DNA from: Isoetes taiwanensis
Lineage: Eukaryota; Streptophyta; Lycopodiopsida; Isoetales; Isoetaceae
DNA: 64,000 nt
Assembly (NCBI GenBank): GCA_021234155.1
Contig: JAJEKV010000144.1
Location: forward strand, 124,001 to 188,000
Direction of reading: 5' to 3'
This document shows positions 5,298 through 51,028 of this stretch, one piece after another. The first letter of the stretch is position 1, and the number at the start of each line of letters is the position of its first letter. The translations under genes and the position numbers were made by a program. A model generated the notes under the pieces. That model was not told where the DNA came from. It saw only the letters and a list, made by a program, of their open reading frames with translations, and ran no database searches.

Positions 5298-7715
5298 ATT
5301 AAGAACTGGTCTAAACACCTTCATGACAGTAAGCTTGCTGAAAAAAGAGCTTATCTACAAGAAATGAAAGAAGTTAGATTAAAACTTCAAGATGATCCCC
5401 TAAACATTGACCTGCATTGGCAAGAGGAGAATCTCGAAATAACCATTAAGACCATTGAAGAACTAGAAGCCAAAGGCTCTTCAATTAGATGTAAGCTTAA
5501 ATACTTCTCCAAAATGGATCATGGGAACTCAAAATTTTTTTTCAGGGTGGCTAAATCTAGGCTTCTTAAAAGTCAACTTTCCTCCATCAGAGATGACAAT
5601 GATATTACTTTGGATGACCAAAAAGAGATATCTAACTATTTTTGCTCCAAATATGCCAATATCTTTTCCCAACCTATTGATACCCCTTTTCAAACTGTTG
5701 AAGCCAATTCATTTTCAGATATGATTAATAATAATGGTCTCCACAGTGACACTGTTATGTCTCATGCCCTAGAGGCTACCCCCTCCATAGAGGAAATTTT
5801 TTCAACTCTCAAAAGTCTAGCCAAAGGGAAAAGCCCTGGCCCAGATGGCTTACCACCTGAATTTTATATCAAATTCTGGGACATAATCAAAAATGACTTC
5901 ATGTTCATGATTAAAGGTTTCTGGAATTCAAATTACCTGCACCCTGCTCTCTCTGCTGGTCTCATTACTTTGATCCCAAAGGTTGACAATCCTCAATCCT
6001 TCTCTGATTGGAGACCTATATCTTTGACAAACTCTACATATAAAGTTTGTGCAAAAATTATTGCAAACAGGGTTAAAACTCACCTTCAAGAAGTCATTAG
6101 CTCTAATCAATCTACATTCCTCCCAAATAGATTTATCCTGGACAATTACATTGCTGCCATGGAGGGTCTGCACTGGAACAAACTGACAAATCAAGACTGT
6201 ATCCTTTTAAAGCTAGATTTTTCAAAGGCTTTTAATACAGTCAGATGGAATTTTCTAAAATTTTCTCTTGAGAAGCTTGGATTCAGCCAAAAGATCATCA
6301 AGTTAATTCTGGGGCTTAACTCTAGATCCCAATCTACTGTGCTTATAAATGGATCCCCTGGACATTTCTTCCCTCTGGCTAGAGGTGTCAGACAAGGGTG
6401 CCCCTTAGCCCCTTATTTATTTCTAGCTGTTGCTGAAATGCTAACTAGAGTTGTCACTCATCTCCAATCTAGTGGACATATTATTGGTCTAAACTTACCT
6501 GACAACACCACAAATCTTTCAATCCTACAATATGCAGATGACTCTTTCAGTTTCCTCAAAAATGATTTGAACATTATTCACACCTTCTTGCAGACCATTC
6601 ATAATTTTGGTTCTGCCTCTGGTATCCACTTGAACATAAATAAATGTACTATCATTGGGGATTTTAATACAGATAACATTGCAGGTATTAAATGCATGAC
6701 TGCTACTGAGACAACTCAACTTCTTGGCATGCCTCTTTCTCTCAATCCTAGTCTCAAATGTCTTTGGAATCCCATTGTAGAAAGGATTAGAAAGAAACTT
6801 GGTAATTATGGCAATTGTCTTTCATTGGCAGGGAGAACTATAATTGCAAACTCCGTCATTGCAGCCTCCCACATTTACTTCTCATCTGCACTCCTAGCTC
6901 CCAAATGCATTTATCAGCAGATTGAGAGAATGGTGAGGAACTTCATATGGGGCAAGCATCATATGGTTAACTGGACTTCAATTACCAGAAGCAAAATTCA
7001 AGGTGGTCTGGGATGCAAAAATCTTATTTTGCAAAGCTATGCTTTAGCAGGCAAATACATTTGGAAGTCTTTATTCTTGAACAATAATCCAGCTTCAATT
7101 TTTATCAATTATTGGCTTTCCTGTAGCCATCCAAAGAAACATGCTTCCATCACTCATAATTTGCCACATTCAGCTTTTACAAATTTACAACCTGCCCCCC
7201 ATATTTCTCCTCTTATGAGAAACGTGATTATGACTTTTCATCATTCCAGCCTAGAGAAAAGCCATATCAACACAAGTATTTTCTGGAATTCTAATTTCTC
7301 AAGAGATAGCTCTACTCCTCTAGCTATCAGACATAAAAAGCTCTACAAGAAATGGAAAGATTTTAATATTCTTACTCTTGGTGATCTCTGGGATCAAGAC
7401 AGATGGATTTCCTGGACTAATTTGAAGTACAAGATCAGAGGTAGTTCTTCTGACAGAACACTCTTTAGATATATAATGCACAAGGTCCGTACAGTTAATC
7501 CTTTGGCTAATCCCATTATTATTGATTGGACTCTTCTTGACAAACCAAATTATAGTGCAAGTCACATGTGCCTTCAAAAGCAAAATTGTATTGGGGCTTT
7601 TCGGATGACACTGAGACCAGGCTCTTCAAAAACATTTGGCATTCTTATCTGCCCCCAAAAATCTCATACTTTGTTTGGCTTGTTGCAAACAAAAGTGTAT
7701 CTAATTTGGAAATGA
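5298..7715 (+). pseudogene. LINE ORF2: reverse transcriptase
   Basis: The L1-type reverse transcriptase copies element RNA at the nicked target. Motifs in order: GKSPGPDGLPPEF at the domain start, LIPKV and WRPISLTN, LDFSKAF (catalytic Asp), GVRQGCPLAPYLF, YADDS (catalytic YADD), then LLGMPL in the thumb. The open frame from Met at 5364 is 783 codons; codons 5298-5363 are in phase with it. The last ~40 residues are out of frame, because the true continuation is in another frame from about 7568, so a frameshift lies near 7550-7600. An otherwise intact domain implies fairly recent decay. Confidence 0.9.
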
Positions 7716-7984
7716 TCTCTAGGCACTCAAACCAAATCACTCATCCTATTGACTCAAACTGCCCCCTTGGCTGTGGTAATGTGGAAATATTTGAGCACAT
7801 CTTTGGGTGTGTCAAGCTTACTTCTTTTTGGTTATGGTTTGAAGATACCTTCAAAATTCAATGCCCTGCTACGCTGCTGGATTTTATGATGAATGATGAT
7901 GCCTTTACAAACTCTTTATGCTTTATTGCCTTATGGAATGTATGGAAACATAGAAATAGAAAGAATATCTATATACTGGATTAA
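7568..7984 (+). pseudogene. LINE ORF2: zf-RVT-like C-terminus (outer element)
   Basis: Continues the outer LINE after a frameshift. It contains LPPKISYFVWLVANK and a Cys/His cluster CPLGCGNVEIFEHIFGC, the zinc-binding region found after RT in plant LINEs, then FIALWNVWKHRNRK. Another frameshift leads into the frame 7893-8204, which is interrupted by the nested LINE at 8143. Role inferred from family knowledge. Confidence 0.7.
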
Positions 7985-8135
7985 AACACAAGTTATTTAT
8001 GACATTGAAATGGCTGCAACTAGTCAGATGCATGTAGATAAAGATTCTGTGGATAATAAATGGCATAGTATTGGTAATTTCATAGGCTTTCATCATTTGT
8101 TCAAATTAAATTGCAATGCTACTCTTACTGACATT

Positions 8136-8143
8136 GAATGTCT
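8136..8143 (+). repeat. Target duplication of nested LINE (left)
   Basis: GAATGTCT here is repeated at 9684-9691, immediately after the short A tail of the nested element. Confidence 0.55.
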
Positions 8144-9172
8144 GCATCCAAGTATTTTCACAGAGCCTGTTATGACAAAATTAAGCATCCTATTTCAATT
8201 CTGATCAGGCACTACATCAGCAAATGCCATCCGTATGGCTGGAGAACTCTCAAAATGGAGCTGCCCCACTCCATCTTCTTTCCTTTCTCTATCCCTGCTG
8301 ATGTTCCTGGATTGATCAAGAAATGGATCTGTGCCTGGATGGAGGTTAGACATATGTGTACTTGGGAGAAAGGCTTCTCTATGGATCAATCAATCTTCTG
8401 GAACCCTGCCTTAGTCCTTGATAATCCCAACTTATGCATGGCCTGCCATTTTCCTGATCAGGCAAAATTATGGAAGAATAAGGGGATAACTTTGATCAGC
8501 CACCTCTTTGATGATAATGGCATTATCCTATTTCATAACTCTAAGCTTGCTGAAGAGGATGATCAAACGAGAATGCTATATGAAGCTATCGTTAATATTG
8601 TCTTGCAGGGTAATTGGTCTCATTCTTCTGACTCATGGAACCATAGAGGTAAAACAGGTTATACTGTTAAATCTGCATATAAGTTCTTGATGAGTCAACA
8701 GGACATCACCATACACCTCAAATGGGGAGTCTCTCCTGATACAGCCAGGAAAAATTTGTTTTTTATGTGGAGGAGCCCGATAAACCCAAAGATCAAGGCC
8801 TTTATGTGGCAATTATGGCTCAAAGGCCTGGCAACTAATTGCAAAAGATTTCGCTTATCCATGACTAACTCGGATTTGTGTGACAGATGCCTTGCTGCTA
8901 AAGAGGATGAGGATCACCTATTCAGATCATGCCTCTGGTCAGAATGGGTTCTTGAATTAGCCTCTAATATTCTCGGCCGAAACATGGTTGATCTTAGCCG
9001 CAAGGAATTTTTTATGCCTACCAATTCGACCGATTGGAGGATTTATATCCTCCTCTGGAGGATCTGGAAAGGAAGAAACACCTTCGTCTTTGATTGTGAA
9101 ATCATCCCTCCGGAAGGGATCATAAAACAGGTATTATATGATATCAATTGGATTATGGAAATTAATGGGTGA
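8144..9172 (+). pseudogene. Nested LINE ORF2, C-terminal zf-RVT region
   Basis: The frame (open from 8138) holds the conserved plant-LINE block: GYTVKSAYKFL, then MWRSPINPKIKAFMWQLWL, then the metal-binding region CDRCLAAKEDEDHLFRSC, then ILLWRIWKGRNTFVFD before the stop at 9172. Only the last third of an ORF2 is present, with no RT domain, as expected for a 5'-truncated copy. It is inactive alone. Sequence differs clearly from the outer LINE, so it is a different subfamily. Confidence 0.75.
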
Positions 9173-13242: not shown

Positions 13243-13803
13243 TGATGACATAGCACTAAGAAAAACTAGCGGAAATGCAGGGTTGGGGTGAAGGTTAGGG
13301 TGTTATAGGGTAAGGTGTGAAAATCAGTGCCATGTGATGGGGATGTGTATGTAATTCTAGTTTGAGGAATAGATAGAAGGGAGAAAGTTTTCACACAAAA
13401 ACACCCCAGATAAAAAGAGTATCTGCCAAACACATCACTAAGATGTCACCCATTATAGACGAATAGTTGCAAATCACACTCAAGCACAAAAAAAAAAAAA
13501 AAAAAAAAAAAAGATGACAAATGACCTAAGGTTCCCAGACGACACTGGAAATCCTTAAGACAAAGTTACTGCAAGAGGACATCCTGCAGCAACATACCGG
13601 AAAGGAAGGAGGGAGAGGGACGAGCATGGCCGGAGCTCGAAGAAGAGATATTTTGCTGACGTGGCATGGAAGGTTGAGTGACAGGGTGTCTATGTGTATA
13701 AGCTAGAATTCCACGAAATCGTGCACCTCAGGTTAGGCAACCCTACTAAAAAAAAAGAAGAAACCAATGTGCACACCGCGTGCATATCTCTAACTGAAGA
13801 CAT
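13243..13803. other. Duplicated non-coding sequence and poly(A) run
   Basis: 13243-13330 (GATGACATAGCACTAAG, CTAGCGGAAATGCAGGG) matches 36620-36700 and partly 21075-21135. A run of about 23 A bases lies at 13490-13512. 13640-13755 (GCACCTCAGGTTAGGCAACC) matches 21040-21075 and 23735-23765. No coding signal is seen. Confidence 0.6.
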
Positions 13804-14534
13804 TGATATGGATATGGTAGCTCGGGGGAGTGGCCTTGAACGTTGGTCTTGGTGGACTAGCATGGGTGTGTGAGATTGGCGAATTAATGGCAAGGCAAGG
13901 CAATTAAATTGGCAAAGATATTTTATGTTAGTAATAGCTAAATAATATCATGTAAGATATATTTAATGGCTAAGCTTTATAAGGCTTGTTTAAAATAGGA
14001 ATAGCCGAACTTTTTTCTAAAAGAGCCAGCATCGGATTTATAAGGGGGCTGCATCAATTCTGAGGGCATCATCAACATTTGTCGACCGGTTTACGGACGT
14101 CTTCAACTAGTCGCCGCTTTGATCCAGCCTCTTAAGCCCGCTTCATCCATAAGCCTATTGAGCTTTCCTTTGCCATTGATTTGCCTTTAAAGTATCTCAA
14201 CACGGTTGGCCGATCTCGTTGGGTGTGGAGCGCCATTATTTGCCTTGTATTGAGAATCTTCCTCTAGTTTTGGTGAACTAGAGCCAGAACATTCTGAGCT
14301 ATTGGTGTAGTTCATACCAATTGGTGTATCTCGTGTCTTATGTTCATTGGATCTGTGCTTATTTACCTTTTTATTTCAAACCTAGATCATTTTGTCATTG
14401 CTAACGGTTTATTCTGTGGATTCTGTAGCAAACCTAGACGGTTTACAGGTAATGAGAATATGATTTGTTTGAAGAGGTCAGGTATTCTATTTGGAATAGA
14501 TAAAAGGAATGGTTTATTATTGTGAACCATATCA
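13804..14534 (+). mobile_element. LTR (731 bp), plus orientation, with PBS
   Basis: Starts TGATATGGATATGG and ends GAACCATATCA; the LTR ends are themselves inverted repeats (TGATATGG/CCATATCA). The initiator-tRNA-Met primer site TTGGTATCAGAGCC follows at 14536-14549, so this is a 5' LTR of a copia-type element. Relative to its partner it contains about 100 extra bases near 14165-14245. Confidence 0.8.
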
Positions 14535-14818
14535 ATTGGTATCAGAGCCAAGCTATTCCTAAAGTTTGCAAAGACTTCCGGTTGGTGCTGGAGATTGCAA
14601 ACAGGAATATAGAATCTTATTCTGGCTATTCTTGATGTTTGTAAGTCATCTAGTTGGTGCTAGTGATTGCAAATTGGAATAGAGTTCCTCCTCCTGAGAA
14701 TCTAAATGATATTCTTTCTATGAAATTAAAATTTTAACTTCTTGGATCATTCTTTCCAATCCGATTTTACCCAGAGTAATCAACCTTTGGATATCAGTAT
14801 GACAATAATAATACCAAT
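14535..14818 (+). mobile_element. Retrotransposon leader remnant between inverted LTRs
   Basis: Begins with the PBS. A sub-repeat TTGGTGCT.G.GATTGCAAA occurs twice (about 14583 and 14654). No gag frame is intact. Confidence 0.55.
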
Positions 14819-15451
14819 TGATATGGTTCACAATAATAAACCATTCCTTTTATCTATTCCAAATAGAATACCTGACCTCTTCAAACAAATCATATTCTCA
14901 TTACACGTGAAACCGCCTAGGTTTGCTCACGTAATCCACGTAATAAACCGTTAGCAATGATAAAATGATCTAGGTTTGAAATAAAAAGGTAAATAAGCAC
15001 AGATCCAATGAACATAAGATACGAGATACACCAATTGATATGAACTACACCAATAGCTCAGAATGTTCTGGCTCTAGTTCACCAAAACTAGAGGAAGATT
15101 CTCAATACAAGCTCAATAGACTTATGGATGAAGCGGGCTTAAGGCTGGATCAACAGAGTCGGCAGCAGCAGCTAGTTGAAGACGTCCGGAAACTGGTCGA
15201 CAACTGTTGATGATGCCCCTGTAAATTCGATGCAGCCCCCCTTATAAATCCGATGCTGGCTCTTTTAGAAAAAAGTTCGGCTATTCCTATTTTAAACAAG
15301 CCTTATAAAAGCTTAGCCATTAAATAATATCAAATATCTTTGCCAATTTAATTGCCTTGCCTTGCCATTAATTCGCCAATCTCACACACCCATGCTAGTC
15401 CACCAAGACCAACGTTCAAGGCCACTCCCCCGAGCTACCATATCCATATCA
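14819..15451 (-). mobile_element. LTR (633 bp), minus orientation, with PPT
   Basis: Reverse complement of the LTR at 13804-14534 over nearly its whole length. On the minus strand it is immediately preceded by CAGAAAGGGAGGAAT (15452-15466), a polypurine tract, so it is a 3' LTR whose body lay to the right. Outer end CCATATCCATATCA. Confidence 0.8.
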
Positions 15452-15740
15452 ATTCCTCCCTTTCTGAAGGCAACTGACCTCAGTTGTGTCCATAAACAAA
15501 TTAAGCACCAACTTAATTTATCCAATTGAGCACCAACTCAATTTATACATGAGCACCAACTCAATTTCCATAATTTATTTTGGTGTCAAATACCGTAGTA
15601 CCTTCACTGCACTTGTCTCAATGTGGGATGTTGAAGGTGGAAAGTGTTGTACATGACTATCCTGCATAGTAGTAAGGTCCTGTCAGTGCAACCTAGTCCA
15701 ACACATTGGACAAACAAATCAACTCTAGTTTGCCCTTGTT
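15452..15740. other. Retrotransposon remnant with short tandem units
   Basis: Three units of about 26-28 bp (GAGCACCAACTCAATTTAT-like) lie at 15505-15565 beside the PPT. Nothing coding is recognised. Confidence 0.5.
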
Positions 15741-17006: not shown

Positions 17007-17149
17007 GAGGAAGAATGGCAGAAAACAGAACGAGAGAGAACCTTCTTTCTAGAACGTAAACAACACTTACGTGTCATCCTGCCCTGGGTTCCAATGTGGT
17101 GATGACACGTGGCGAGTTTCATTTCCAGGAATGTGAGGTAAATTTAGTT

Positions 17150-17498
17150 GCATTCTGTTTTTAGTTACATTCCAAAATTTTTACTTACAACCCTTATTTA
17201 CTTGCATTCCACATTTACATTCCAACTTTTTTACTTGCATTCCAGATTTACACGAATACCAGATTTACAGATACCAGATTTACACAGATTTACAGATTTC
17301 AAACATATTCAAATTCAACCAAAATTTGAAACACATTCAAAAATAGTCTGAACAGTATTATAGTGGCACATAGTGGCACATTCAAGAACGTCTGAACAGT
17401 ATTACAGTGGCAAAAGTATCAAAAACAATATGAACATAGTATCAAAAGAGAGTCTGAACAGTACCATAGTGGCAAAGTATCAAAGTATCTGAACACCT
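17150..17498 (-). repeat. Sub-repeats at the 3' side of the recombinase gene
   Basis: TCTGAACAGTA..A.AGTGGCA occurs three times (17346, 17391, 17453) and CCAGATTTACA-type words recur at 17243-17300. They lie directly after the recombinase stop codon, in what would be its 3' UTR or the element's 3' end. Confidence 0.7.
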
Positions 17499-19573
17499 TC
17501 ATTTGAAATTGAAAACACAGTTATGAAATGTTTTGCCTATAACGCCACTAAACCGATGCGCTGCCACCACCTTTTCTAAATCATCCCAATGATCATTTAA
17601 GAAAGCATCGTCTTCAACTTCATTCTGCACACCTGCATGTGATACTAAAGGCCCTGGAACATTGATAGTACCTATTTGAACTTCCTTGGCATCATCTACC
17701 ACTGATGTAGAAGCTGATAAAGGAGCAGAAATTATTGAAGCAGATGTAGAAGATACAGGATTACCATTTGGACCTTCACCACTTTTCCCAAACTGCTCCT
17801 TATCATATGCATTCAGCTCATCCTTATAAACGTCTTCAAACATCCTTCTCGATCCAGTTGCATCAAATGGCTTGCCAGCTATTTCCATTGCAGCCTTCAC
17901 TTGCAATTCTGTAGTTTTGTCATACCTGTATACAGAACATTAAACTAATTAAGGAAGCTACACAAATAAAGAAACATCACTAAAAAATTGTAGAATTATT
18001 ACCTTTGAAAAGCCTCTACAGTGCGATGTCCAGTTACTTTCATACCAACATTAATCGGTACGCCAGCTCGTGACAGCCTAGAAACTAGTGTCGTCCGTCC
18101 ACTCTTACCACTGAAAGAGCCATCAACTCCTATAAGTTTCATCATGTACTTCAGCCATTGCGACATCTTTCTGCCACTAACCCTATGCTTAACATTATAC
18201 CATGCCTGCAACAAGTTAAACAGTTTAAGTTTTAACAATTCAACCTATTATGAAATATCAAAAACAATTACTTACTGTTTTCCGTGGTGAAATAATTGCT
18301 TGCTTGAATAACCAGTCATCATCAGGAGTCGTGTAAGGGTAATGGCGGAAGAATTGTTTAAAGGTCAAAATTACATCGTCTTCATAAACACGAAGCGGCA
18401 TCCGAAAAGACTCTTCCTGGTACCTGTCCATACTTACATCATACTGCTTTGAGAGCCTCTCATTATATTCTACGTACTCTTTCCCATTTTCTGTTCCTAT
18501 TTCAAAATCTGCCACCTTTAGACCTTCCAGCTCCTCTTGTCCCCTAATCCCAAATCTGGATACGCAGTAAAACAATAACCTCTTTTGAAGACCAACAGAA
18601 TGTTCAATTCCATGGTCGACATTAGACAAAAGGGCATGTTCATTCGCGAATGAAATTTCATCTACTTTCTTCCTTTTCTTACACACCCCTGGTGTCATCC
18701 TCGATCTCCTCATAGAGGCAACACATGCAAGCCTTGCACGCGTGAAAACAACAGAATACTTAATATTGAAAGGAAATTCCTCTATACCACTTTCTGCAAT
18801 TTTCCGCTCCTGCTCACGTCGAATCATGACTCCAAATCTTCTGAACAGGTCTTGAAGCCTGCAAGAAAGAATGTAAGACGTAATGAAAAAATATCAAATA
18901 AATAAAAGAATGTGTAACTAAATAAATGTAACTAAAGAAAACAATGTACTAAAAACAGTAACTAAAAAATGCAACTAAATAAAACACTAACTAAATAAAA
19001 GAATGTACAAAAATAAATGACTTACGTTTCAGGGGGGTACATTGATCCATCTAGCTTCACAACTTGAAGCATAAATAGCTCCAACATGCTGGAAAACTCC
19101 TTCAAATCAAGCTCCTCAACTTTCTTTTCAACATGAATTTTCATATGAACCCTCCAACAGTCAAACCGCCTCCTCGCCCACTGGATTTTTGCCTCAGACT
19201 TGCTAATGCCACCACTACGAACTTCTTGCAGCAAATCTTTATCAATTTCCAAAAAGGTAACTGTTGGCTGTTTCTCAGAATTCTCTTTCTCGCTTTCACA
19301 TGGAACTACTACACTTAGATGCCCATTAGATTCTGCTTCTTCAAGGTATTTTGTAATTGCATCATCAGAAAACTCATTTTCAAAGCTAACATCTTCATCC
19401 TGCAGGTTAGTTACATCACTTAAAACAGCAATTTCAGAACTGCCAGCAGCTTGAGAGATGTGAAGATCAAAGCTTGGAGTCGAATCCATGCCTGCAAGCC
19501 TCCAGGCAGCATTCTCAGCATCTCCAATCATAAAACATAATGTATTGACAAGAAAAATTAGAGGGAATCCCAT
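17499..19573 (-). CDS. Crypton/DUF3504-type tyrosine recombinase, four exons
   Basis: Predicted DNA-cutting and rejoining enzyme that forms a 3'-phosphotyrosine link. Exons (minus): 19573-19026, 18858-18276, 18205-18003, 17925-17499, all GT-AG with matching phases, giving 586 residues. Residues ~126-190 carry the N-terminal SAM-like DNA-binding region (KIQWARRRFDCWR, DGSMYPPETLQDLFRR) typical of the Crypton/DUF3504 group. The catalytic core follows: Arg288 in FGIRGQEEL, Lys411 and Arg414 in GKSGRTTL (Lys replaces the usual His), His437 in TGHRT, and the nucleophile Tyr446 in FQRYDKTTE, created across the last splice. The ~140-residue tail is Ser/Ala/acidic. No stop or frameshift occurs inside the exons. 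More 5' exons are possible, since an acceptor lies at 19614. Whether it is a mobile Crypton or a settled host gene cannot be decided from sequence alone. Confidence 0.85.
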
Positions 19574-20297
19574 GATCCAACCTCTACAATGTCTAAGCAC
19601 TAATTTCTTCACCCTGTGTAACAAAAAAAAAAACGAGTAAGAAACTATTACAAACATATAATGAATAAAAGAACAGAATAAAGAATACAGAACAGAATAA
19701 AAGGACAAAATAAAGAACTACTACAGACAAAATATCGGACCTAAGAACTTGTAAACACATAATATCGGACCTAAGAACCCTAAGATCAACAAAAAATTAA
19801 CATGCAGGAACATAAGAAACCTAACATCTAAAATAAACCAGAATTTTTACCTTCTAAGGCCTGAATGTGCCGTAAGACTTGTCTTCTCACCAATCTTTGG
19901 CCTGAAACACGATCTTCCAACGCCTGAAACACATTTGATTTCCAAGATTTACAAACAAGTGAGTCAATACCAAAATTTAGCGGCCAGAATAGAATAAAAG
20001 CAAGTAAAAGTCCAAGCAGACGAACCTGAGCAAAAAAAAACTCCAAGATTTTCGACAAAAACTCCAAGATTCTCCATAAAAAGGTTCGAAATGCAACAAA
20101 AATGATGGCGCCAGCAAAAAAATGCAAGCAAGATGCTTGCAGACCTCGAGCGCCTTCGGCGCGCCACAAAAAGGTCCGGCAGCAGCTCGCCTTCGCAGCC
20201 AAAAGGAGGTAAGGAAAAAAATTTTGCCAGAAGGAAAACAGAGAAATTTTTTTGCCTGCCACGCAGGAGGACACGTCAGTGTCGCCCACGTTACAGT

Positions 20298-20531
20298 AAT
20301 GACCTTTTGGTCGACATTCCTGGCATGTCAACCAGGCTCCGCGCTGCCGCGCGTCGCCTGGTTTCCATGCCAGGAATGTCGACCAAAAGGTCATTCCTGT
20401 ATACAAAAGACCCTTTGCAGATTTCTCTAAAGCAATTACTCGCGGAGCCTGGTTGACATGCCAGGAATGTCGACCAAAAGGTCATTCCTGTATACAAAAG
20501 ACCCTTTGCAGATTTCTCTAAAGCAATTACT
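20298..20531. repeat. Nested foldback plus 91-bp tandem duplication
   Basis: 20298-20327 is a perfect 30-bp inverted repeat of 20366-20395. 20298-20343 is a perfect 46-bp inverted repeat of 20441-20486. The right arms belong to a tandem duplication (20369-20440 and 20460-20531, period 91) containing ATGTCGACCAAAAGGTCATT. The unit lies upstream of the recombinase gene. It is probably the end of a DNA transposon, family unknown. Confidence 0.8.
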
Positions 20532-20989: not shown

Positions 20990-23770
20990 AATCAGACGGC
21001 TCAAAATCATTTTAACGGACGTGGCATAGCTAGAATCGCAAGAAAGTGGGCAGCTCGGGTTAGGCAACCCTGCATTTAAAACAAACTAGCGGAAATGGAG
21101 GGTTGGGGTAAAGGTTGGGGCGGGGATGGAGTTGGATGATCATATCTCTACAAATACTGGCTTACAGCCTCCAAGCAGTAAGATGGTAAAATAGTGCCAG
21201 CAAATGTCAACACATGAGCAACCTTCCAATTCCCATAGTAAACATGTACCTTGCTCCGAAACCAACAAAGATCTTATGGCAACCAATACCTATTAATTAG
21301 CATGATCAAAAGATTCGACAAAAAACTGCCACTAGACAACAAAACAGGTAAACTAGCATCCATGCTAGCTCTTGTACCACGCACCTGCGCCAATAATTTC
21401 ATTCAAACCTCATGCCGTCAAACTCATCTGAAACTAACTATAGCAGCACTGGAAATATTACATCATGGAAGGAAAGGAACTGCAGAGCATAACCACTTGA
21501 CCATAATATATAAAACATTCTTTATCTTTCCCTTTGTGTAAAGCCTGCATTCGTACTTGGTCGGCAGATCATTCTCTATGTGTGCATTTATCTGGTATGC
21601 CTCATAGACATTTTCTTGCTTAATGAAAGTAGTATGTATTGCATTTCAAGTTACAATCGGCGATGAGAGTTAAAATATGGAACGTATTGCCAAGGTCAAA
21701 AGAGCAACAAAAGACAATCAACCCCTTTACTTCAAGAACACAATACATATAAGCATAAGCCATCTTCATGTCCTCTTTCCTATTATTGTTACACCGCAAA
21801 GATGTTTTTGAATAATGGCAGTGGTGGATTTATGAAGAATAAGACCGGATATTAAAAAGCGCACACACCAATGCAGGATTAAAATGTCTAGATTTCTGGA
21901 GAGAAAGAAAACTTGTTTGGAGCAGAATAGTTAAAGAGGCTTGAACTCATGATTCAGCGTTAGCCAACAATATATGGTTGTTATGGAAAGAAGTGGGAAG
22001 GATTGAATAAGAAAATCAAAACAAGCCAAGAGGAAGAGTCACAGCTCTGGACCAGGGAAACAATATTCATGCTGACAAATTAGCTATAGATGCATCACAA
22101 ACCTTTGGTATTCCAGTTTGTAAAATATGTGAGGAGAATCTTAATGTCAAAATGAAAACATGTCAGCTTATATCTGCAAAGGGATTTCAATAAGTATAAT
22201 GCACCTATATATGCAAATGGATGTATCTGCATAAATGTGCAGTAGGCATGTAGGATTTGAACAGTGAATAGCATCAGAATACAAGAAATAAGATAAATTG
22301 TTTCTATAGCTCTAAAGGCTCCCGCAGCTTAGAAGATTATAATCTTAATGCCTATCTCTAGTGTTATGTTGATCATAACTGACAATATCTTTTGCACAAA
22401 AGAGCATGTCAAGACTTGTAATCCTTCTTGAAGGCTGTATATGTTGATCTAAGAAGGAACAATAGAAAAGAAATGTTCATGAATCAAATGTAAAGTCAGG
22501 AGCAGCTTCTAATAACTTGTAAAGGACCTACAAACTTTGATCTGAAAGCTCCATTATAACTTTGTATCTTTTGCTTTTATAAGGATTCAGAGATGATTTA
22601 TTCCCTCTAAGGTCATCCACCGGGAGAATTGCCTAAGTATTAGAAAGTAGCCACAAATAAAGTTCTATTCGAGCAGTATTGCTCCCTTGGAAAACCTAAC
22701 CAGGTGAAGATAGCAAAATTAGGATGCTTATGATACCTTTGTTGGATCTGTCTAGGAAATAACAATTGAATATATTTCTATACGTCCACCATACAACTGC
22801 CAGCATACAAATGTTTCTGCATGAGCATCATAACTAAGCCTTGATGGAAACAGAATATCGATAACATAATGCTTCATTTATCATGTGCAAGCTACATAAT
22901 AAGATAGGATAGGAGTTTTTTATCTTGCAATTATCTGGCTCCTTGATGCATATTGATTCTTCCCTGATTCTTCTCTGCAGCATCCTGCAAAGCCTTAATA
23001 GTTGCTTCCTTTGAAAGAATAGACCCATTAAAGTTGAGAAAACTCTGACTTAAATTTACAGGCAGCCTTCAAAAAGAATTGTTCAGAACCTAGGCAGTTT
23101 TTAAGGCATGCAATTTGTGTTGTGGGAGTCTATCAGTTTCTAAGGCACACAACACAGGAAAAATGATTGACAAATACTCAATATGTGCTCTCTAAAAACT
23201 GCAATCGCTTTATCGACACTGTTTGTCCTCACCATAAATCAAGTAGATAGTTATAACTAAAAGCTGAGTGTTTAAGACCTCTTCTGTTCAGAGCCCAGAA
23301 GAACAAATCCAATGCAGTGCCTGGATCTCGGATTCTTTGCAATACATAAGCTATGAGGGAAGAAGTAACTCTAAAACATTCAATTTTGAAGTGCAAGCAA
23401 CCAAAGGGACGGACCGCTTTTGATGATTCCTTGTATGTTGGGACTGGTTGGGAAGCTATGAAGCAGAAACAGGCTCCTCTGGCGCAATTGTTCTTGTTAC
23501 TTTTGTCACTTCGTTTGAACAATGAATTAGACGGTTGAATGGAATGGAAAAAGATGGGGAGCATTGTGGTAGGGATGCTCGAGAAATGAGAGGCCATCAA
23601 CTGCAGTAGAATCGGTCGGAAGCTAGCTCCATCTCCCTTATTGTGGGGCTTATGGTTTGCCTGATGTGGGCTCGAAGAAGAGGATGACATGGCATTCTCG
23701 TGGCATACATGTGGCATAGCTAGAATTGCAGCAAAGTGTGCACCTCGGGTTAGGCAACCCTCCTAAAAAA
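20990..23770. repeat. Segmental duplication, copy A
   Basis: From about 21075 (AAAACAAACTAGCGGAAATG) to 23646 this matches 36655-39117 almost throughout with small indels, for example TATTGCCAAGGTCAAAAGAG, GGTCATCCAC.GGGAGAA and CACAACACAGGAAAAATGAT. It is mostly non-coding, with a dead PPR gene at its right end. Copy A continues uninterrupted past 23646 (ATTGTGGGGCTTATGG) where copy B is cut by a CACTA end. Confidence 0.85.
23229..23717 (-). pseudogene. PPR protein N-terminus, truncated (copy A)
   Basis: 162 codons from ATG 23717. The C-terminal part, SSLIAYVLQRIRDPGTALDL, FFWALNRRGLKHSAFSYN and YLLDL, is the start of a P-class pentatricopeptide repeat protein (organelle RNA-binding family). 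The frame stops right after LLDLW. One base out of frame the sequence continues plausibly (RTNSVDKAIAVFRE), so a single-base frameshift near 23230 killed it. The rest of a PPR array is absent. Confidence 0.65.
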
Positions 23771-28410: not shown

Positions 28411-28911
28411 CCTTCATGCCATATCCCTCAATCTTTCATTTTCACCAGATATTCCAAGAATTTCTTTGAACAAGTTAAGCTTGCGTTCTGTCATTGCCTT
28501 GGTAAACAAGTCTGCTGCTTGATATGAGGTCTCCACATATTGCATAGCTAGCTCATTTTTCGCAATAAGATCTCTTATGAAATGAATATGTAATTCTATA
28601 TGTTTGGTTCTTTCATGATGCACAGGATTTTTTGCTATAGCAATACAACTTAGACTATCTGTTAACAGCACAGTCGGATTTGGCTGAGATATACCTACTT
28701 CAGTTAATAGTCTTCTTACCCATGCAATTTCTTTAGCTGCTAAAGACGCTGCCGAGTATTTAGCTTCTGCAGAGGACATCGCAATAGATGATTGTTTTTT
28801 ACTTCTCCATGATATCAAACCTCCTGCAAGTACCAAGGCATAGCCAGATGTTGATCTTCTAGCATCTAGATCTCCTGCCCAGTCTGCATCTGAATACGCA
28901 AATAAGACCAA
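28411..28911 (-). pseudogene. copia RNase H and C-terminus
   Basis: Removes RNA from the RNA-DNA hybrid during reverse transcription. Motifs: YSDADWAGDLDARRSTSGY with the first catalytic Asp, ISWRSKKQSSIAMSSAEAKY with the catalytic Glu, then TDSLSCIAIAKNP, and HIELHIHFIRD near the end. The stop lies just before the PPT. The frame is broken from the RT part upstream. Confidence 0.85.
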
Positions 28912-28983
28912 ATTATCAGAATTAAAAGTGATTCCATGATCTTTAGTGCCCTTTAAGTATCTTAAGATCCTTTTGGCTGCAAT

Positions 28984-29445
28984 TCAATGTCTTGTGCCTG
29001 GATTGTTGTTATATCTGCTTAATAGATTTACTGCAAAAGCAATATCTGGACGTGTACTATTAGCAACATATAGCAGACATCCTATGAGTTCCCTGTATGG
29101 AATGTTTTCCATTTCCTTCTTTTCATGTTCAGATGATGGACATAAAGCTGCTGAAATTTTATAACCTGCTACAAGTGGAGTACTCACTGTGTTTGCATTT
29201 TCTAATCCAAATCTTTTTATCATATTTTCAATGTTTCTTGTCTGACTAAGTCTGAGTATTTTATTTTCCTTATCTCTATTCATCTCAATACCTAGAAACT
29301 GTTTCAATTCTCCAAGATCTGTCATTTTAAATCTTTTCTTCAAAATATCTTTGCATCTATCTAGATGTTTCATGCAATTTGAAACCATCACACAATCATC
29401 TACATACAGAGCAATAATACAAAATTTATCTCCCTCTTTGAACAT
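28984..29445 (-). pseudogene. copia reverse transcriptase, C-terminal half
   Basis: Contains LYVDDCVMVSN (catalytic YVDD), KRFKMTDLGELKQFLGIE, and GCLLYVANSTRPDIAFAVN. It overlaps the preceding RT piece in another frame, so a frameshift lies near 29420-29445. Another break follows at 28984. Confidence 0.85.
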
Positions 29446-30140
29446 GTAAAGATTTCCATCATTTTAAGTTTTTCAAATTCTTGTTCTATCAGATACTTAT
29501 CCATGCATTTATACCATTCTCTAGGCGCTTGTCTTAAACCGTACACCGCTCGTTTTAATTTCCAAACCATGCCAGTACTTGTTTGAAAGCCTAGAGCTTG
29601 TTTCATATATATCTCTTCTTGTAAGCTGGCATTCAGAAATGCAGTTTTCACATCCATATGGTGTACATCAAGTTTGAGAGCATTTGCTACTGCTAATACA
29701 AGTCTTACACTTGTTAATTTGACAATAGGGGAGTATGTTTCTTCATAATCAATTCCCTTTTTTTGAGAAAAACCTTGAGCAACCAACCTAGCTTTATATC
29801 TTTTTGATCCATCAGCATTTGTTTTTATTCTATAAATCCATTTATTTCCAACCAGATTCTTAGTTCTAGGATGTTCTACTAACTCGTACGTACCAGTTTC
29901 CTTGAAAGAGTCCATCTCTTCTTGCATTGCCCTCACCCATTCAGAGGCCTTTTCTGAATTGATTGCTTCATCAAAAGATGTGGGAACATCAGGTTCAAAC
30001 ACAGCCATTAACGAGGGATATCTAACTGGAGGTTTCCCAATTCTTCTGGTTTTCCCTGTGCCATATCTGCCATAAATTTCAGGATTATAGTCTATACCTG
30101 TACCTTTAAGCTTTTCCACCTCAGTCTTCCTTACCATCAT
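29400..30140 (-). pseudogene. copia reverse transcriptase, N-terminal half
   Basis: Contains WVRAMQEEMDSFKETGTYEL, GNKWIYRIKTNADGS, ARLVAQGFSQKKGIDYEETY, SPIVKLTSVR, HHMDVKTAFLNASLQEEIYM (catalytic Asp) and KRAVYGLRQAPREWY, the standard copia RT order. A frameshift separates it from integrase upstream and from the YVDD half downstream. Confidence 0.85.
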
Positions 30141-30852
30141 ATGAGCGATTTAGTTTAGTACCTGACCATATCTCCTCTGGAATACCTCCATCCAAACTGC
30201 TTGATGGCAATCTGTTCTGTATAAAAAATGCTGTTTTGACTGCTTCTTCCCAAAGATAATTTGGTAAACCTGCAAATTTTATCATAGATCTTACAGCATC
30301 TAAAACTGTTCTATTTTTTCTTTCTGCAACACCGTTTTGTTGCGGAATATATCTACATGTGAGTTGTCTTTTTATTCCACGCTCAAGACAAAAATATTTA
30401 AACTTTCTTGAAAGATATTCACCACCTCTATCTGATCTAATGCATTTAACTTTATGTCCTGTTTCCCTTTCGATTTCATTTACGTACATCTTTAATGCAT
30501 CAAGGGCTTTGTCTTTAGTTGACAATAAATAGCATTTTCCCCTTCTACTAAAATCATCAATAAAAGATATATAATACCTTTTACCCGTTCTTCCTTGCAC
30601 ATTCAATGGACCACAAAGATCTGTATGTACGAGATCAAGAGGATCCATGGCTTTTTTCTTTGATCTGCTAAAAGGCAATCTGGTTAGTTTCCCTAATATA
30701 CAACCTGGGCAGATGAATTTCCCAACAGTGTCATCTTCCCCATGAATATAGCCATTTTTAATCATGTATCTGATATTGTTCATATGCGTATGAGCAAGCC
30801 TATTATGCCATGTTGAGGATGTAGTGACTTCCAACACATTCACACTTTCCAA
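30121..30852 (-). pseudogene. copia integrase
   Basis: Inserts element DNA in the genome. A GAG-pre-integrase zinc region (WHNRLAHTHMNN... with CPGCILGKLTRLPF) is followed by the catalytic core: HTDLCGPL, FIDDFSRR, RSDRGGEYLSRKF, and NGVAERKNRTV with the catalytic Glu. The C-terminal part is shifted out of frame near 30130. Confidence 0.85.
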
Positions 30853-31250
30853 GATATTTTTGGAAACTGAAACAGATTGCCAACTCGCTTTGCAAGAAAC
30901 TTCAATTCACCATCAAGCAAAACCGTACAGCCTTTTTTGTCAAACCTTAATTCATATCCCAAATCAACTAATTGACAGACGGAAATCAAATTTTTGTGCA
31001 AACCCGGAACACACAAAACATTACCAACATCAACGCTATTCCCATGGAGATCAAATAACTGCAACATTCCTTTGCCAGTTACTTCCTGCAAGTCTCCATT
31101 TCCCAACTGCACATGGCTCATGTATTTACTGGGACAAACATTAGTTAAAAACTTAGTGGAGTTAACTACTGATCGTTCAGCACCGCTGTCAATTATGAAT
31201 TCATCAACCTTATGATTAAAAAAGCATTCATTAATCTCATAAGTTGACAA
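30840..31250 (-). pseudogene. copia protease
   Basis: Aspartic protease that would cut the element polyprotein. Active-site motif DEFIIDSGAERSVV; then LGNGDLQEVTGKGMLQLFDL and VGNVLCVPGLHKNLISV, the usual flap and C-terminal segments before the GAG-pre-integrase region. Frame 30840-31250, separated from the knuckle and integrase by frameshifts. Confidence 0.8.
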
Positions 31251-36598: not shown

Positions 36599-39117
36599 AA
36601 GATAAGAGTTTAAATAATTGATATGGTTTATGATGACATAGCACTAAGAAAAACTAAAACAAACTAGCGGAAATGCAGGGTTAGATGAAGGTTGGGGCGG
36701 GGATGGAGTTGATGACCATTTCTGTACAAATATTGGCCTACAGCCTCCAAGCAGTAAGATGTAAAATAGTGCTAGCAAATGTCAACACATGAGCAACCTT
36801 CCAATTCCCATACTAAACATGTACCTTGCTCCGAAACCAAATGGCAACCAATACCTATTAGTTAGCATGATCTAAAGAATCGGCAGAAAATTGCCACTAG
36901 ACAACAAACCAAGTAAACTAGCATCCATGCTAGCTCTTGTACCACGCACATGCGCCAATAATTTCATTCAAACCTCACGCCATCAGACTCATCTGAAACT
37001 AACTGCAGCAGCACTGGAAATATTACATCCAAGAAGGAAAGGAATTGCAGAGCATAACCACTTGACCGTAATATATAAAACGTTCTTTATCTTTCTTTGT
37101 TGTGTAAAGCCTGCATTCGTACTTGGTCGGCAGATCATTCTCTGTGTCTGCATTTATCTGGTATGCCTCATAAACATTTTCTTGCTTAATGAAAGTAGTA
37201 TGTTTTGTATTCCAAGTTACAATAGACGATGGGAATTAAAATATGGAACGTATTGCCAAGGTCAAAAGAGCAACAAAAGACAATCAACCCCTTTACTGCA
37301 AGAACACAACACACATAAGCATAAGCCATCTTCATGTCTTCTTTCCTATTATTGTTACACTGCAAAGATGTTTTTAAATAATGGCAGTGGTGGATTTATG
37401 AAGAATAAGGCCAGATATTAAAAAGCGCACACACCAATGCATGATTAAAATGTCTAGATTTCTGGAGAGTAAAAGAAAACTTGTTTGGAGCAGAATAGTT
37501 AAAGAGGCTTGACCTCACGATTCAGTGTTAGCCAACAGCATATGGTTGCTATGGAAAGAAGTGGGAAGGGTTGAATAAGAAAATCAAAGCTAAGAGAAAG
37601 AGTCACAGCTCTGGACCAGGGAAAAAGTATTCATGCCGGCAAATTAGCTATAGATGCATCACAAACCTTTGGTATTCCAGTTTGTAAAATCTGTGAGGAG
37701 AATCTTAATGTCAAAATGAAAACATGTCAGCTTATATCTGCAAAGGGATTTCAATAAGTATAATGCACTTATATATGCAAATGGATGTATCTGCGTAAAT
37801 GTGCAGTACGCATGTAGGATTTGAACAGTGGATAGCATCAGAATACAAGAAATAAGATAAATTGTTTCTATAGAGAGCATGTCAAGACTTGTAATCCTTC
37901 TTGAAGGCTATATATGTTGATCTAAGAAGGAACAATAGAAAAGAAATGCTCAGGAATCAAATGTAAAGTAAGAGCAGCTTCTAATAACTTGTAAAGGACC
38001 TACAAACTCTGGCCTGAAGGCTCCATTATAACTTTGTATAACTTTTGCTTTAGAGATGATTTATTCCCTCTAAGGTCATCCACTGGGAGAAGTGTCTATG
38101 TTAGTATTAGAAAGTAGCTACAAATAAAGTCCCTTTTCCAATGAAAGTTCTGTTCGTTCTATTCGAGCAGTATTGCTCCCTTGGAAAATTTACCGAGGTG
38201 AAGATAGCAAAATTAGGATGCTTATGATACTTTTGTTGGATCTGTCTAGGAAATAACAATTGAATATATTTCTATATGTCCACCATACAGCTACCAGCAT
38301 ACAAATGTTTCTGCATGAGCATCATAACTAAGCCTTAATGGAAACAGAATATCGACAATATAGTGCTTCGTTTATCATGTGCAAGCTACATAATAAGGAG
38401 ATATTCATGTTTTTTGCAATTAGGTGGCTCCTTGGTGCATATTGATTCTTCCCTGATTTTTCGCTCAGCATCCTACAAAGCCTTAATAGCTGGCTCCTTT
38501 GAAAGAGTTAGACCTATTAAAGTTGAGAAAACCCTGCCTTATATTTACAGACACATTCAAAGAGAATTGTTCAAAACATAGGCAGTTTTTAAGGCATGCA
38601 ATTTGTGCTCTGTGAGTCTATCAGTTTCTAAGGCACGCAACACAGGAAAAATGATTGACAAATACTCAATTTGTGCTCTCTAAAAACTGCAATTGCCTTA
38701 TCAACGTTGTTTGTCCTCACCATAAATCAAATAGATAGTTATAACTAAAAGCTGAGTGTTTAAAACCTCTTTTGTTCAAAGCCCAGAAGAAGAAATCCAA
38801 TGTAGCGCCTAGATCTCGGATTCTTTGCAACACATGGGGAGAAGTAACTCTAAAACATTCAATTTTAAGTGCAAGCAACCAAAGGGACGGATCGCTTTTG
38901 ACGATTCCTTGTCTATCTGGACTGGTTGGGAAGCTATGAAGTAGAAACAGGCTCCTCTAGCACAATTGTTCTTGTTAATTTTGTCATCTCGTTTGAACAA
39001 TGAATTAGATGGTTGAATGGAATGGAAAAAGATGGGGAGCATTGTGGTAGGGATGCTCGAGAAATGAGAGGCCATCAACCGCAATAGAATCGGTCGGAAG
39101 CTAGCTCCATCTCCCTT
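36599..39117. repeat. Segmental duplication, copy B
   Basis: 36604-36640 matches locus 12465-12480 plus 13243 onward (without micro-MITE and MULE), then 36655-39117 matches 21075-23646. The homology stops exactly at CTCCCTT, where a CACTA terminus begins. Mostly non-coding. Confidence 0.85.
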
Positions 39118-47131: not shown

Positions 47132-50100
47132 TCATTGTTGACTTGTATTATCGCTTTTGCTAGTTTTCTGTGCACCTGCATGTTTTGTTAGTTCCTCGGT
47201 TCTAATAGTTGCATCATCCCATTTATCAGTACTTGCATAAATATTTGCCATAAGCACATATGAAGCGGCATTTTCTGGATTCGTCTCAAGTAGCTTTTGA
47301 TAACAGCGTAGTCCTAATCCTGTCTCCCCATAAATTCTGCAGGCACTGAGCAATGCTGTCCAAGCTTCTATAGATGAACAGCATAAAGCAATTTGAATCA
47401 ATCTCTGGGCCTCATACAACTGCCCTGATCGTGCAAGGAGGTCAATCATGCAAATATAGTGGTCTGCTGTGGGCACAATATTGTACTTTTCTTTCATTGC
47501 CTTGAAGTATTTCTGACCTCTAACCAGCAGATTTGCATGACTACATGCAGTAAGAAGTGATAAAAATGTGATGCCATCAGGCTTTATGCCATCCTGCTCC
47601 ATGTCATGAAAGCATTCAACAGCCATTTTACCATCATGGTTCATGCCATATCCTCTTATCACTGCATTCCATGAAACAACATCTCTTGCTGGTAAATTAT
47701 CAAAGACGAGGCGGGCTTCCAACAGTGAGCCACATTTTGCATACATATCAATCAAACTGCTACCTATAAGAAGATCTTTATTGAATCCTAGTTGGCCAAT
47801 TTCATTATGCAGTTTCCGTCCTTCTTCAGGCGCCAACATATTGCCACAACATTTCAGTCCCCAAACAAATGCAATGGGGTCTGGAGACACACCAACAAGT
47901 TGCATCTGCACTAAGCATTTAAGTGCTTTCTGATTGTATCCAAGCTCCACAAATCCTGCAATCATTGTAGTCCATGACACAACATCTCGATGCGGCATCT
48001 TATCAAAGAGTTCCTGTGCTTCTGCAAGTGAGCAACATTTAACATACATGTCCAGCAAGGCATTGCCAACAAGAAGACTTTTCTGAAATCCCTTCTGTAC
48101 AATTTCTGCATGCAAACTTTGGCCCTTGCCAATGTGCCCTATGTTGCCACATGCTTTTAAGCAGGTAAGGAATGTGGCAGCACTTGGTGACATATTATGC
48201 AGTTGCATACGTTCATAACATGACAATGCTTCAATATTGAATCCACTTTCAACATAACCTGCAATTAATGAGTTCCAGGATATCTCGTCTCTGAAAGGTA
48301 GGTTGTCAAAGACTTTCTGCGCTTCTAAAATTAAACCACGTTTTGCATACATGTCTATTAAACTATTACCAACAAAAATGTCTTTTTCAAGTCCCTTTTG
48401 CATGATCTCTCTATGGATTTCTTGAGCATAATCTATAGATCCTATACAGCTGCAAACTTTCAGGACACAAACAAACGTGACTGCATTTGGGGTCACATCT
48501 TCCAGCTGCATCTGCTTTAAACACTTCAGTGCATTCAATACAAAGCCATGGTCGGCATAACCTGCAAGTAATGTGTTCCATGCAACACTATCACGAACTA
48601 ACAGCTTGTCAAAAACATCTTCTGCCTCTAAAAGTGACCCACATTTAACATACATGTCAATTAAAGAGTTCCAAATGATGGAATCCCACTCAGAGCTCCT
48701 TTTTGATATTGCAATGTGTAATTCTCTGCCTTTTCCTATTGCTCCTATGCTGCCGGAGGCTTTCAAAGTACAAAGAAAAGTGATTTTATTTGGAGACACA
48801 CCCTCCAGAATCATTTCTTCAAAACATCTTAGTGCCTCATCGTAAAGTCCATTTTCAGAGAACCCTGCAATAATTGCAGTCCATGAAACAACGCTACGAA
48901 CTTGAAGCTTATTAAAAACATTCCATGCCTCATCAACTGAACCACACCTGTTGTACACATTAATCAGTGCATTAGCAACAAAAATGTTGCCTTCAAATCC
49001 CTTGCAAGAAATTTCAGCATGTATTTCTCTGCCCTTTCTTAAAGTCCCTATAATGCTACACGCTTTCAGGATGGATACAAATGTAAATGCATCAGGTAAT
49101 ATGCCTTCAAATTGCATCTGTTCAAAGCATTCCAGTGCTTCTGTACTATGACCATGTTCAGCATATCCACCAATCATTGTAGTCCATGACACGGCATCTC
49201 GAACAGGCATTTTGTTAAATACTTCACATGCCTCTCCAAGCGATCCACACTTCACATACATGTCGATTAAAGTATTGCCTATGTTTAGATCTTTGTATCC
49301 CATGTCAAAAACTTTAGCTTGTATCTCACGAATCTTGTCCAAAAATCCCATGCTTCCACAAGCTTTCAGAATACAAATGAATGTAGGGACATTTGGAGAT
49401 ATACCATTCTGTTGCATAAGCTCAAAGCATTTTAATGATTCCATGCTTAATCCATTCCCAGCATATCCTGCAATCAAAGTGTTCCATGAGATGATATTCC
49501 TGATGCGGATCTTATCAAAAACATCACGTGCCTCCATAAGTGACCCACACTTGGCATAAGTCTCAATCAAGGCATTGCTCATATAAACATCTTCAAAGCC
49601 TTTTTGGTTAATGACATTGTGAATCTCTCTAGTCTTATCCAAAGCTCCTAGGCTGCCACAAGCTTTCAAGCTACTAATGATCGTAACAGAATCCGGGGAA
49701 ATGTTCTCCTGTTGCATTTGTTCAAAACATTTCAATGCTTCCTGATTAAGTCCATTCTCAGAATATCCTGCAATTAATGCATTCCATGAAATGACATTTC
49801 GAAGGGTATGTCTATCAAAAATCTTCCGTGCCTCCATAAGTGCACCACATTTAGCATACATGCAAACCAGACTGTTGACAATAAAAGGATCCCTTTCAAA
49901 ACCCTTTGTCCTTATCTCCATGTGTATTTCTCTCCCTTTGTCTATGAACAACATGGCGCCACAAGCTTTCAAACTACCAACATACGAGATTATATTTGGA
50001 GATATACCATCAAGGTGCATTTTATCAAAACAATTCAAAGCATCCACAACTTTCCCATTATCAGTAAATCCTGCAATTATTGTGTTCCAGGATATAACGT

Positions 50101-51028
50101 CTCTAATAGGCATCCTCTTAAAGACATCCTGTGCCTCTGTAAGGGAGCCACATTTAGCATACATGTCCACCAAAGCATTGCCAACAAAAAGATCTGTTAA
50201 AAATCCCATTTGCACGAGAATGGTATGTATCTCCCTGCCTTTATCTATAGCTGATATGTTTGTGCAAGCTTTCAAGCAGCAAACAAATGTCGTTGTATTT
50301 GGACTTGTATTACCACATTGCATCTGCTCAAAGCAATTAAGTGCCTCCCTGTCAAGTCCATTCTCAGCAAACCCTGAAATTAATGTGTTCCATGAGACAA
50401 CATGCCGAACCGACAGATTGTCAAAGACTTCTTGTGCTTCTGCAAGTGAGCCACATTTAGCATACATATTGACCAAAGTGTTGCCAATGTAAGGGTCCAT
50501 TTCAAATCCCTTTTTTCTAATCTCAACATGAATATGTCGGCCCTTCTCCAAGTCTTTCCCCCTAGCACAAGCTCTTACCAATGCTGTAAGGGTGTGGGCA
50601 CTAGGACAGACACTGTCCTCTTGCATCTTCTGGTACAAACTGAAAGCATGTTCTGATTGTCCCAGTTCGATATGTCCTATTATAACAGAAGTCCAGGAGT
50701 GCTCATTTCGATGAGGCATTCTGCTCAAAGATTCGTGAGCATCAGACAGACTCCCACACTCCATAAACATGGGAACAATATAATTCCCGACATCTTGATA
50801 AGCTTCTAAGCCATTGTCACATATATGAGCATGAACATATTTGGCTAAATATAAATTCTTTTCTTTCCTGCATTTTTGCAGAATAGCAAGCATGCTGCCA
50901 CCAGAAGGTTGCTCTGCTGCTTGGTTCAACATCTCCTGGGACCTCTTCCCACCTAATTGGCTGCTTACTTGCCATTTCCATAATTTGAATGCCTCTTGAT
51001 TTCTACACTTCAGGCTAGCCTTACACAT
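47132..51028 (-). CDS. PLS-class pentatricopeptide repeat protein with E domain
   Basis: 1298 residues, intronless, from ATG 51028 (the next in-frame codon upstream that matters is a stop). PPR proteins bind organelle RNA base by base; PLS types usually guide C-to-U editing. Eleven S-type motifs (MYAKCGSL.EA...VFD.M..RDVVSWN) mark about eleven P-L-S triplets of ~101 residues from ~residue 75 to 1130. Then comes the E region: HYICMIDLLARSGQLYEAQ, WTALLSACRIYGETG, NAASYVLMANIYAS. No DYW deaminase is present. The frame ends early: one base out of phase at ~47151-47110 lies IIQVNNEVHEFASNE, a normal E+ segment, so a small indel near 47150 truncated the C-terminus. A strong organelle transit peptide is not obvious. 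Probably still functional in RNA binding, though loss of E+ may disable editing. Confidence 0.9.
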   Translation of the reverse strand: MCKASLKCRNQEAFKLWKWQVSSQLGGKRSQEMLNQAAEQPSGGSMLAILQKCRKEKNLYLAKYVHAHICDNGLEAYQDVGNYIVPMFMECGSLSDAHESLSRMPHRNEHSWTSVIIGHIELGQSEHAFSLYQKMQEDSVCPSAHTLTALVRACARGKDLEKGRHIHVEIRKKGFEMDPYIGNTLVNMYAKCGSLAEAQEVFDNLSVRHVVSWNTLISGFAENGLDREALNCFEQMQCGNTSPNTTTFVCCLKACTNISAIDKGREIHTILVQMGFLTDLFVGNALVDMYAKCGSLTEAQDVFKRMPIRDVISWNTIIAGFTDNGKVVDALNCFDKMHLDGISPNIISYVGSLKACGAMLFIDKGREIHMEIRTKGFERDPFIVNSLVCMYAKCGALMEARKIFDRHTLRNVISWNALIAGYSENGLNQEALKCFEQMQQENISPDSVTIISSLKACGSLGALDKTREIHNVINQKGFEDVYMSNALIETYAKCGSLMEARDVFDKIRIRNIISWNTLIAGYAGNGLSMESLKCFELMQQNGISPNVPTFICILKACGSMGFLDKIREIQAKVFDMGYKDLNIGNTLIDMYVKCGSLGEACEVFNKMPVRDAVSWTTMIGGYAEHGHSTEALECFEQMQFEGILPDAFTFVSILKACSIIGTLRKGREIHAEISCKGFEGNIFVANALINVYNRCGSVDEAWNVFNKLQVRSVVSWTAIIAGFSENGLYDEALRCFEEMILEGVSPNKITFLCTLKASGSIGAIGKGRELHIAISKRSSEWDSIIWNSLIDMYVKCGSLLEAEDVFDKLLVRDSVAWNTLLAGYADHGFVLNALKCLKQMQLEDVTPNAVTFVCVLKVCSCIGSIDYAQEIHREIMQKGLEKDIFVGNSLIDMYAKRGLILEAQKVFDNLPFRDEISWNSLIAGYVESGFNIEALSCYERMQLHNMSPSAATFLTCLKACGNIGHIGKGQSLHAEIVQKGFQKSLLVGNALLDMYVKCCSLAEAQELFDKMPHRDVVSWTTMIAGFVELGYNQKALKCLVQMQLVGVSPDPIAFVWGLKCCGNMLAPEEGRKLHNEIGQLGFNKDLLIGSSLIDMYAKCGSLLEARLVFDNLPARDVVSWNAVIRGYGMNHDGKMAVECFHDMEQDGIKPDGITFLSLLTACSHANLLVRGQKYFKAMKEKYNIVPTADHYICMIDLLARSGQLYEAQRLIQIALCCSSIEAWTALLSACRIYGETGLGLRCYQKLLETNPENAASYVLMANIYASTDKWDDATIRTEELTKHAGAQKTSKSDNTSQQ

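Follow-up and report, generated by a model that had tools for sequence, protein, structure and literature searches.

The 64,000-nucleotide stretch of DNA from the lycophyte Isoetes taiwanensis analyzed here (the window) very probably contains, to judge from its sequence, a 3.35-kb Crypton-type transposon in which a spliced DUF3504-type tyrosine recombinase is the only recognized gene. The result is a land-plant Crypton-type element with defined ends, a target preference and copies. Its boundaries are fixed by the copies, and a covarying hairpin at one terminus opens the recombination site to direct testing. Should the site prove to be that hairpin, hairpin-site recombination would have a eukaryotic version of its own. 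An earlier, sequence-only reading of this DNA had left a choice between a plant Crypton and a domesticated plant recombinase. The multicopy state, sharp ends, target preference and neutral decay favor the Crypton, and the retained catalytic Tyr and second Arg speak against domestication. The recombinase type, the lack of a reverse transcriptase, the absence of target duplication and the short end repeats, as read from the sequences, all fit a Crypton.

The element, with its gene on the minus strand, spans 17055..20404 (3,350 bp), as delimited by the limits of similarity shared across host copies. Twelve copies have an alignable left side, and similarity begins at 17053-17055 in nine of them; the starts in L011, L013 and L020 deviate by up to 16 bases. 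The right-hand limit of similarity falls at 20403-20411 in seven of the 19 copies; the rest are truncated or diverge earlier. The nine two-ended copies are 2,501-3,639 bp long. The termini proper are not inverted repeats; instead, the 28 bp of the left terminus (CGTAAACAACACTTACGTGTCATCCTGC, 17055..17082, plus strand) have an inverted counterpart some 114 bp inward of the right end, at 20263..20290 on the minus strand, with a match of 22/28 in the window. This inverted copy lies at the foot of an almost perfect palindrome about 110 nt long (20292..20401, plus strand), with arms of about 53 nt and a 4-nt loop, which ends three bases from the terminus TATAC. The first outside bases at the right end, AAAAG (20405..20409, plus strand), fit the RNAA target preference described below. 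A 91-bp tandem duplication (first copy 20350-20440, second copy 20441..20531, plus strand; 96% identity) lies outside the element proper; its unit consists of half the hairpin and 36 bp of flank, and because it includes that flank it postdates the insertion. No reverse transcriptase, RNase H or DDE transposase domain was found in the element itself or among ten ORFs of its flanks, and those ten ORFs have no methylase domain either.

The right-end hairpin covaries. In nine copies, picked for carrying the long hairpin, 95.8% of cells pair, and sliding the pairing partner lowers this to at most 47%. Two-sided changes are found at 19 of the 45 hairpin pairs, compared with a shuffled mean of 10.4, and none of 500 shuffles reached as high a count. 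The hairpin has decayed in L020. The inverted left-end match at the hairpin foot reaches 22-24 of 28 in six of the nine two-ended copies (shuffles, 20 or fewer), with weaker matches in L033 (20), L020 (16) and L014 (14), the last having an indel that breaks its left 28-mer. When the two ends are joined, one strand can fold across the joint, and the right end then pairs with 20-26 of the 27 left-end bases; this was so in all seven copies tried, a set without L014 and L020. The hairpin and foot repeat probably present the recombination site, either as a cruciform or as a folded strand.

It is also possible, although we consider it somewhat unlikely, that the element is a Crypton whose palindromic hairpin is passive and plays no part in recombination, being kept near-perfect because one arm is copied from the other (arm-to-arm copying) when the DNA is replicated or repaired. 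Such copying would likewise yield two-sided changes, and the length and nesting of the palindrome do differ between subfamilies, being short in L024 and L031 and nested in L028. However, the palindrome lies right at the terminus in copies of distant subfamilies (L028, dS 1.7). In addition, the left terminus, on the far side of the element, matches the hairpin foot and shares with it a subfamily change in L028, and arm-to-arm copying of the hairpin leaves both of these unexplained.

In the likeliest course of transposition, the recombinase would bring both ends together, TATAC against GTAAAC, to close a circle, with the terminal hairpin and its foot copy of the opposite end probably presenting the recombination site. 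The circle would then recombine with genomic sites that resemble the joint, about TTCC..TA.A-C-RNAAA, and its integration would produce no target duplication and leave a CGTAAA-like repeat, imperfect in sequence, on either side. An indirect hint of the circular intermediate comes from L027, in which a right end borders directly on a left end (AACATTCCTATATAC followed by GTAAACGACAC), and the left flank of L015 is similar; the neighbor in L027 looks like a shorter, different element. Bacterial integron attC sites are tyrosine recombinase sites that can be rebuilt within one folded strand. The joined ends fold likewise, on paper only, whereas the recombinase was not IntI-like in any search. By analogy with attC, the tyrosine recombinase might act on a hairpin-presented and possibly single-stranded site, with a stem of about 170 nt containing the joint and with a Lys-x-x-Arg box replacing His-x-x-Arg in the enzyme, but we judge this full scheme unlikely. 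Single-strand recombination by the element is possible.

The recombinase gene is encoded on the minus strand of 17499-19573, and its four joined exons give 586 residues and a stop. This bears out the sequence-only reading of a four-exon gene with GT-AG borders, and the joined frame has a stop only at its end. Exon 1 (19573-19026) begins with a start codon at 19573 (Met1) or at 19489 (Met29), of which Met29 is the better conserved candidate; exon 2 (18858-18276) carries Arg288 and Lys320; exon 3 (18205-18003) carries the box II residues Lys411-x-x-Arg414 and His437; and exon 4 (17925-17499), in which the first complete codon is that of Tyr446, encodes the C-terminal tail TFHNCVFNFK. The intervening GT-AG introns, on the same strand, are 167 nt (intron 1, 18859..19025), 70 nt (intron 2, 18206..18275) and 77 nt (intron 3, 17926..18002) long. 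There are no internal stops in the coding frame of any exon, compared with 8 to 25 in the other two frames, and the single in-frame stop of exon 4 is the terminal one. The T content of the sense strand is 44-58% in the introns and 27-30% in the exons. Across 19 copies in the host genome the GT/AG borders are mostly retained and exons mostly outlive introns, with exceptions such as intron 1 of L014 and L015, which is 95-96% identical, and several mutated borders. The seven closest full copies have exons 85-98% identical and introns 72-96% identical with indels, so that the contrast in conservation is clear on average, though not for each intron. Because of the open exon frames, the T-rich introns and the retention of borders and exons across copies, the predicted splice model exceeds chance expectation. 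Judged by eye, there is a possible 5' leader intron at 19574-19850 (minus strand), with a donor near 19849 and an acceptor near 19614. An insertion of about 80 bp, possibly an extra intron, is common to L026-L028, the most distant subfamily, in the exon 2 alignment.

DUF3504/Crypton-type proteins are the nearest recombinase sequences found for the window protein; they align to it over the core-binding domain and the catalytic domain, and its C-terminal tail is shared by many of them. The DUF3504 profile score is 72.2 bits, whereas the highest score among 1,001 controls, shuffled or reversed, is 3.4, and hhalign against the DUF3504 family gives a probability of 98.4 across 298 columns. The Pfam DUF3504 model by itself is a weak match (E 0.017), and DUF3435 gave no match to the window protein at E 10. 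Among solved structures, QRICH1 ranks first for the family profile, and it is also the best structural match to the predicted model of exon 2.

The active site assigned by the sequence-only reading (Arg288, Lys411, Arg414, His437 and Tyr446) holds at four positions and fails at one. Agreement among 120 DUF3504 relatives is 117/120 for Arg288, 116/120 for Arg414, 118/120 for His437 and 119/120 for Tyr446, so these four residues stand on conserved positions. Lys411, by contrast, occupies the His position of the HxxR motif, which is His in all 120 relatives, and the catalytic hairpin lysine is predicted to be Lys320 (119/120) rather than Lys411. The box reads N-K-S-G-R in the host family and N-H-S-I-R in the DUF3504 relatives; in terms of the Crypton R-H-R-Y tetrad, Arg288, Arg414 and Tyr446 are present and the first His is Lys411. 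The lysine is retained in 17 of the 19 other copies, the distant L026-L028 included, L023 and L024 being unaligned there. Arg414 has been lost in L010, L013, L017 and L021, and Tyr446 is altered in L025. Since Lys replaces a His found in every one of the relatives, we treat the recombinase activity as putative.

A count of genomic copies, which the sequence-only reading had called for, finds a multicopy family: a search with the gene DNA of the host assembly (1,658,258,908 bases in 1,110 contigs) gave at least 68 matching stretches, which are fragments rather than copies, with 40 of 166 candidates scored. Besides the window copy, the analysis covered 19 other copies with flanks and 12 further loci. 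Measured against the window copy, dN/dS is 0.13-0.38 in all 19 other copies at dS 0.14-1.74, with codons containing gaps or stops omitted and with L022-L025 poorly aligned in parts. In ten of the other copies, 241 of 330 copy-private substitutions are nonsynonymous or create a stop, where the neutral expectation is 0.727, and all 19 are broken in the alignments by a frameshift, an in-frame stop or truncation. The copies look to have decayed neutrally after insertion. Many decayed copies with a dN/dS near 1 had been named in advance as the mark of an ordinary dead transposon; the decay was found, but dN/dS is well below 1. As read from these substitution patterns, selection on a mobile lineage followed by neutral decay would be the usual life of a transposon, which argues against domestication.

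We therefore regard domestication of the window copy, from a Crypton into a host gene under selection at its locus, as very unlikely, although several observations lean that way. The window copy is the only open one among the 20 examined, its nearest copy lies at dS 0.14, and 6 of its 13 private changes are nonsynonymous, below the neutral 0.727 (P 0.039), 13 changes being a small sample. More intact copies may exist among the candidates beyond the 40 of 166 scored. Against domestication, the window copy keeps both transposon ends, and it keeps the catalytic Arg, Lys, Arg, His and Tyr. The known DUF3504 host genes (QRICH1, ZMYM2/3/4, KIAA1958, KCTD1 and WOC) have the same recombinase-derived domain and are conserved but, according to PMC3212892, no longer have the catalytic Tyr or the second Arg, whereas the window family is multicopy and keeps both. 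A tree places the window copy with L011 and L013. Extra right-end-like sequences that have no full gene adjacent to them occur in L013, L023 (1130, minus) and L038 (3375, minus; 3832, minus), suggesting short non-autonomous hairpin elements.

The Crypton-type element leaves a consistent signature at its insertion sites. No target-site duplication was found in the flank pairs of the nine two-ended copies. Immediately beyond the right end the sequence conforms to RNAA (R in 21/22, A in 19/22 and A in 21/22), in a count where the window's duplicated end was entered twice and at least one entry is likely a false match (L017, CTACT). The left terminus begins CGTAAA, or AGTAAA in 3 of 15, giving end repeats of CGTAAA on the left versus CRNAAA on the right. 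The left flanks of 15 copies lean toward the right-end sequence, with T at -4 in 12, A at -1 in 12 and T at -9 in 11. The apparent insertion preference is for a CGTAAA-like sequence. Copy L014 sits within a repeat that has uninterrupted relatives, ten of which were fetched. The closest empty site, L041 (80%), reads CTTTTCC-GTAAAAAA, compared with TTTTTCT joined to GGAAAAAA for the L014 flanks. At this single well-aligned site of 80% identity there is no duplication, to within one base; L042 and more distant relatives agree in outline, with a less exact alignment of the joint. These insertion signs are those expected of the conservative site-specific recombination proposed for Cryptons in PMC3212892.

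The same data make it highly improbable that the element is a DDE cut-and-paste transposon with inverted repeats and the recombinase as a passenger, in the manner of MarCry, which PMC3212892 describes as a Crypton-Mariner fusion. The inverted repeat of 22-24 matching bases in 28 bp would suit such an element, but target duplication is absent both in the nine copies and at the L014 empty site, the right-hand repeat lies about 114 bp inside rather than at the terminus, and the flanks resemble the joint of the element ends. Descent from a DIRS or Ngaro retrotransposon that once carried the tyrosine recombinase is scarcely credible, even though DIRS1-like elements have inverted repeats and are recorded from Viridiplantae in a passage of PMC4157794, because reverse transcriptase, RNase H and methylase domains are absent from the ten flank ORFs, the nine two-ended copies span merely 2.5-3.6 kb and, unlike in copies derived from spliced RNA, introns persist in copies at dS >1.5.

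Among known systems, the Crypton groups F, S, A and I, as set out in sections of PMC3212892, are alike in carrying a tyrosine recombinase alone, in a length of a few kb, in direct end repeats of 4-6 bp and in lacking target duplication. The window element differs from them in its land-plant host, in the Lys that replaces the HxxR His and in its long terminal hairpin, whose foot carries the opposite end in inverted form. The words hairpin, palindrome and stem-loop are absent from PMC3212892 (Kojima and Jurka 2011), and a 28-bp inverted repeat with a hairpin is not described there for Cryptons. The same source calls Crypton boundaries difficult to characterize, lists no plant among the hosts of its Table 1 and mentions a DUF3504 protein in a green-alga mitochondrion. 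Starships with DUF3435 captains are also DNA elements of eukaryotes that a tyrosine recombinase mobilizes, but they carry large cargo and their recombinases are only very distantly related (PMC12134995). Plant surveys do contain Crypton labels: Crypton is listed among the superfamilies present in all taxonomic groups studied in one (PMC4438587), and a plant transposable element atlas tabulates 535 entries for Crypton in a single data set (PMC8729191). PMC7385966 states that there had been no description of Cryptons from A. thaliana, and the main text of the Isoetes taiwanensis genome paper (PMC8566536) makes no mention of Crypton. Because such labels exist, what is new here is the described anatomy and not the first detection in a plant.

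The window contains other mobile and coding sequences around the element. To the left of it, at 13802-15453, is a foldback-type element with a large inverted repeat whose arms are 85-96% identical, and a LINE-type reverse transcriptase with zf-RVT lies at 5364-9172 (plus strand). A repeat of about 2.5 kb is present twice, at 21077-23639 and 36655-39117, with 89-93% identity; the single ORF of this repeat that was tested (23232-23762) had no Pfam match. A fragmented Copia copy at 28414-31250 (minus strand) is the second of its kind in the window, the other being a long open Copia-type polyprotein at 53622-56657 (minus strand). A land-plant host is indicated by the intronless open frame of 1,298 residues at 47132-51028 (minus strand), which encodes a PPR protein with an E motif, a motif typical of plant PPR proteins.
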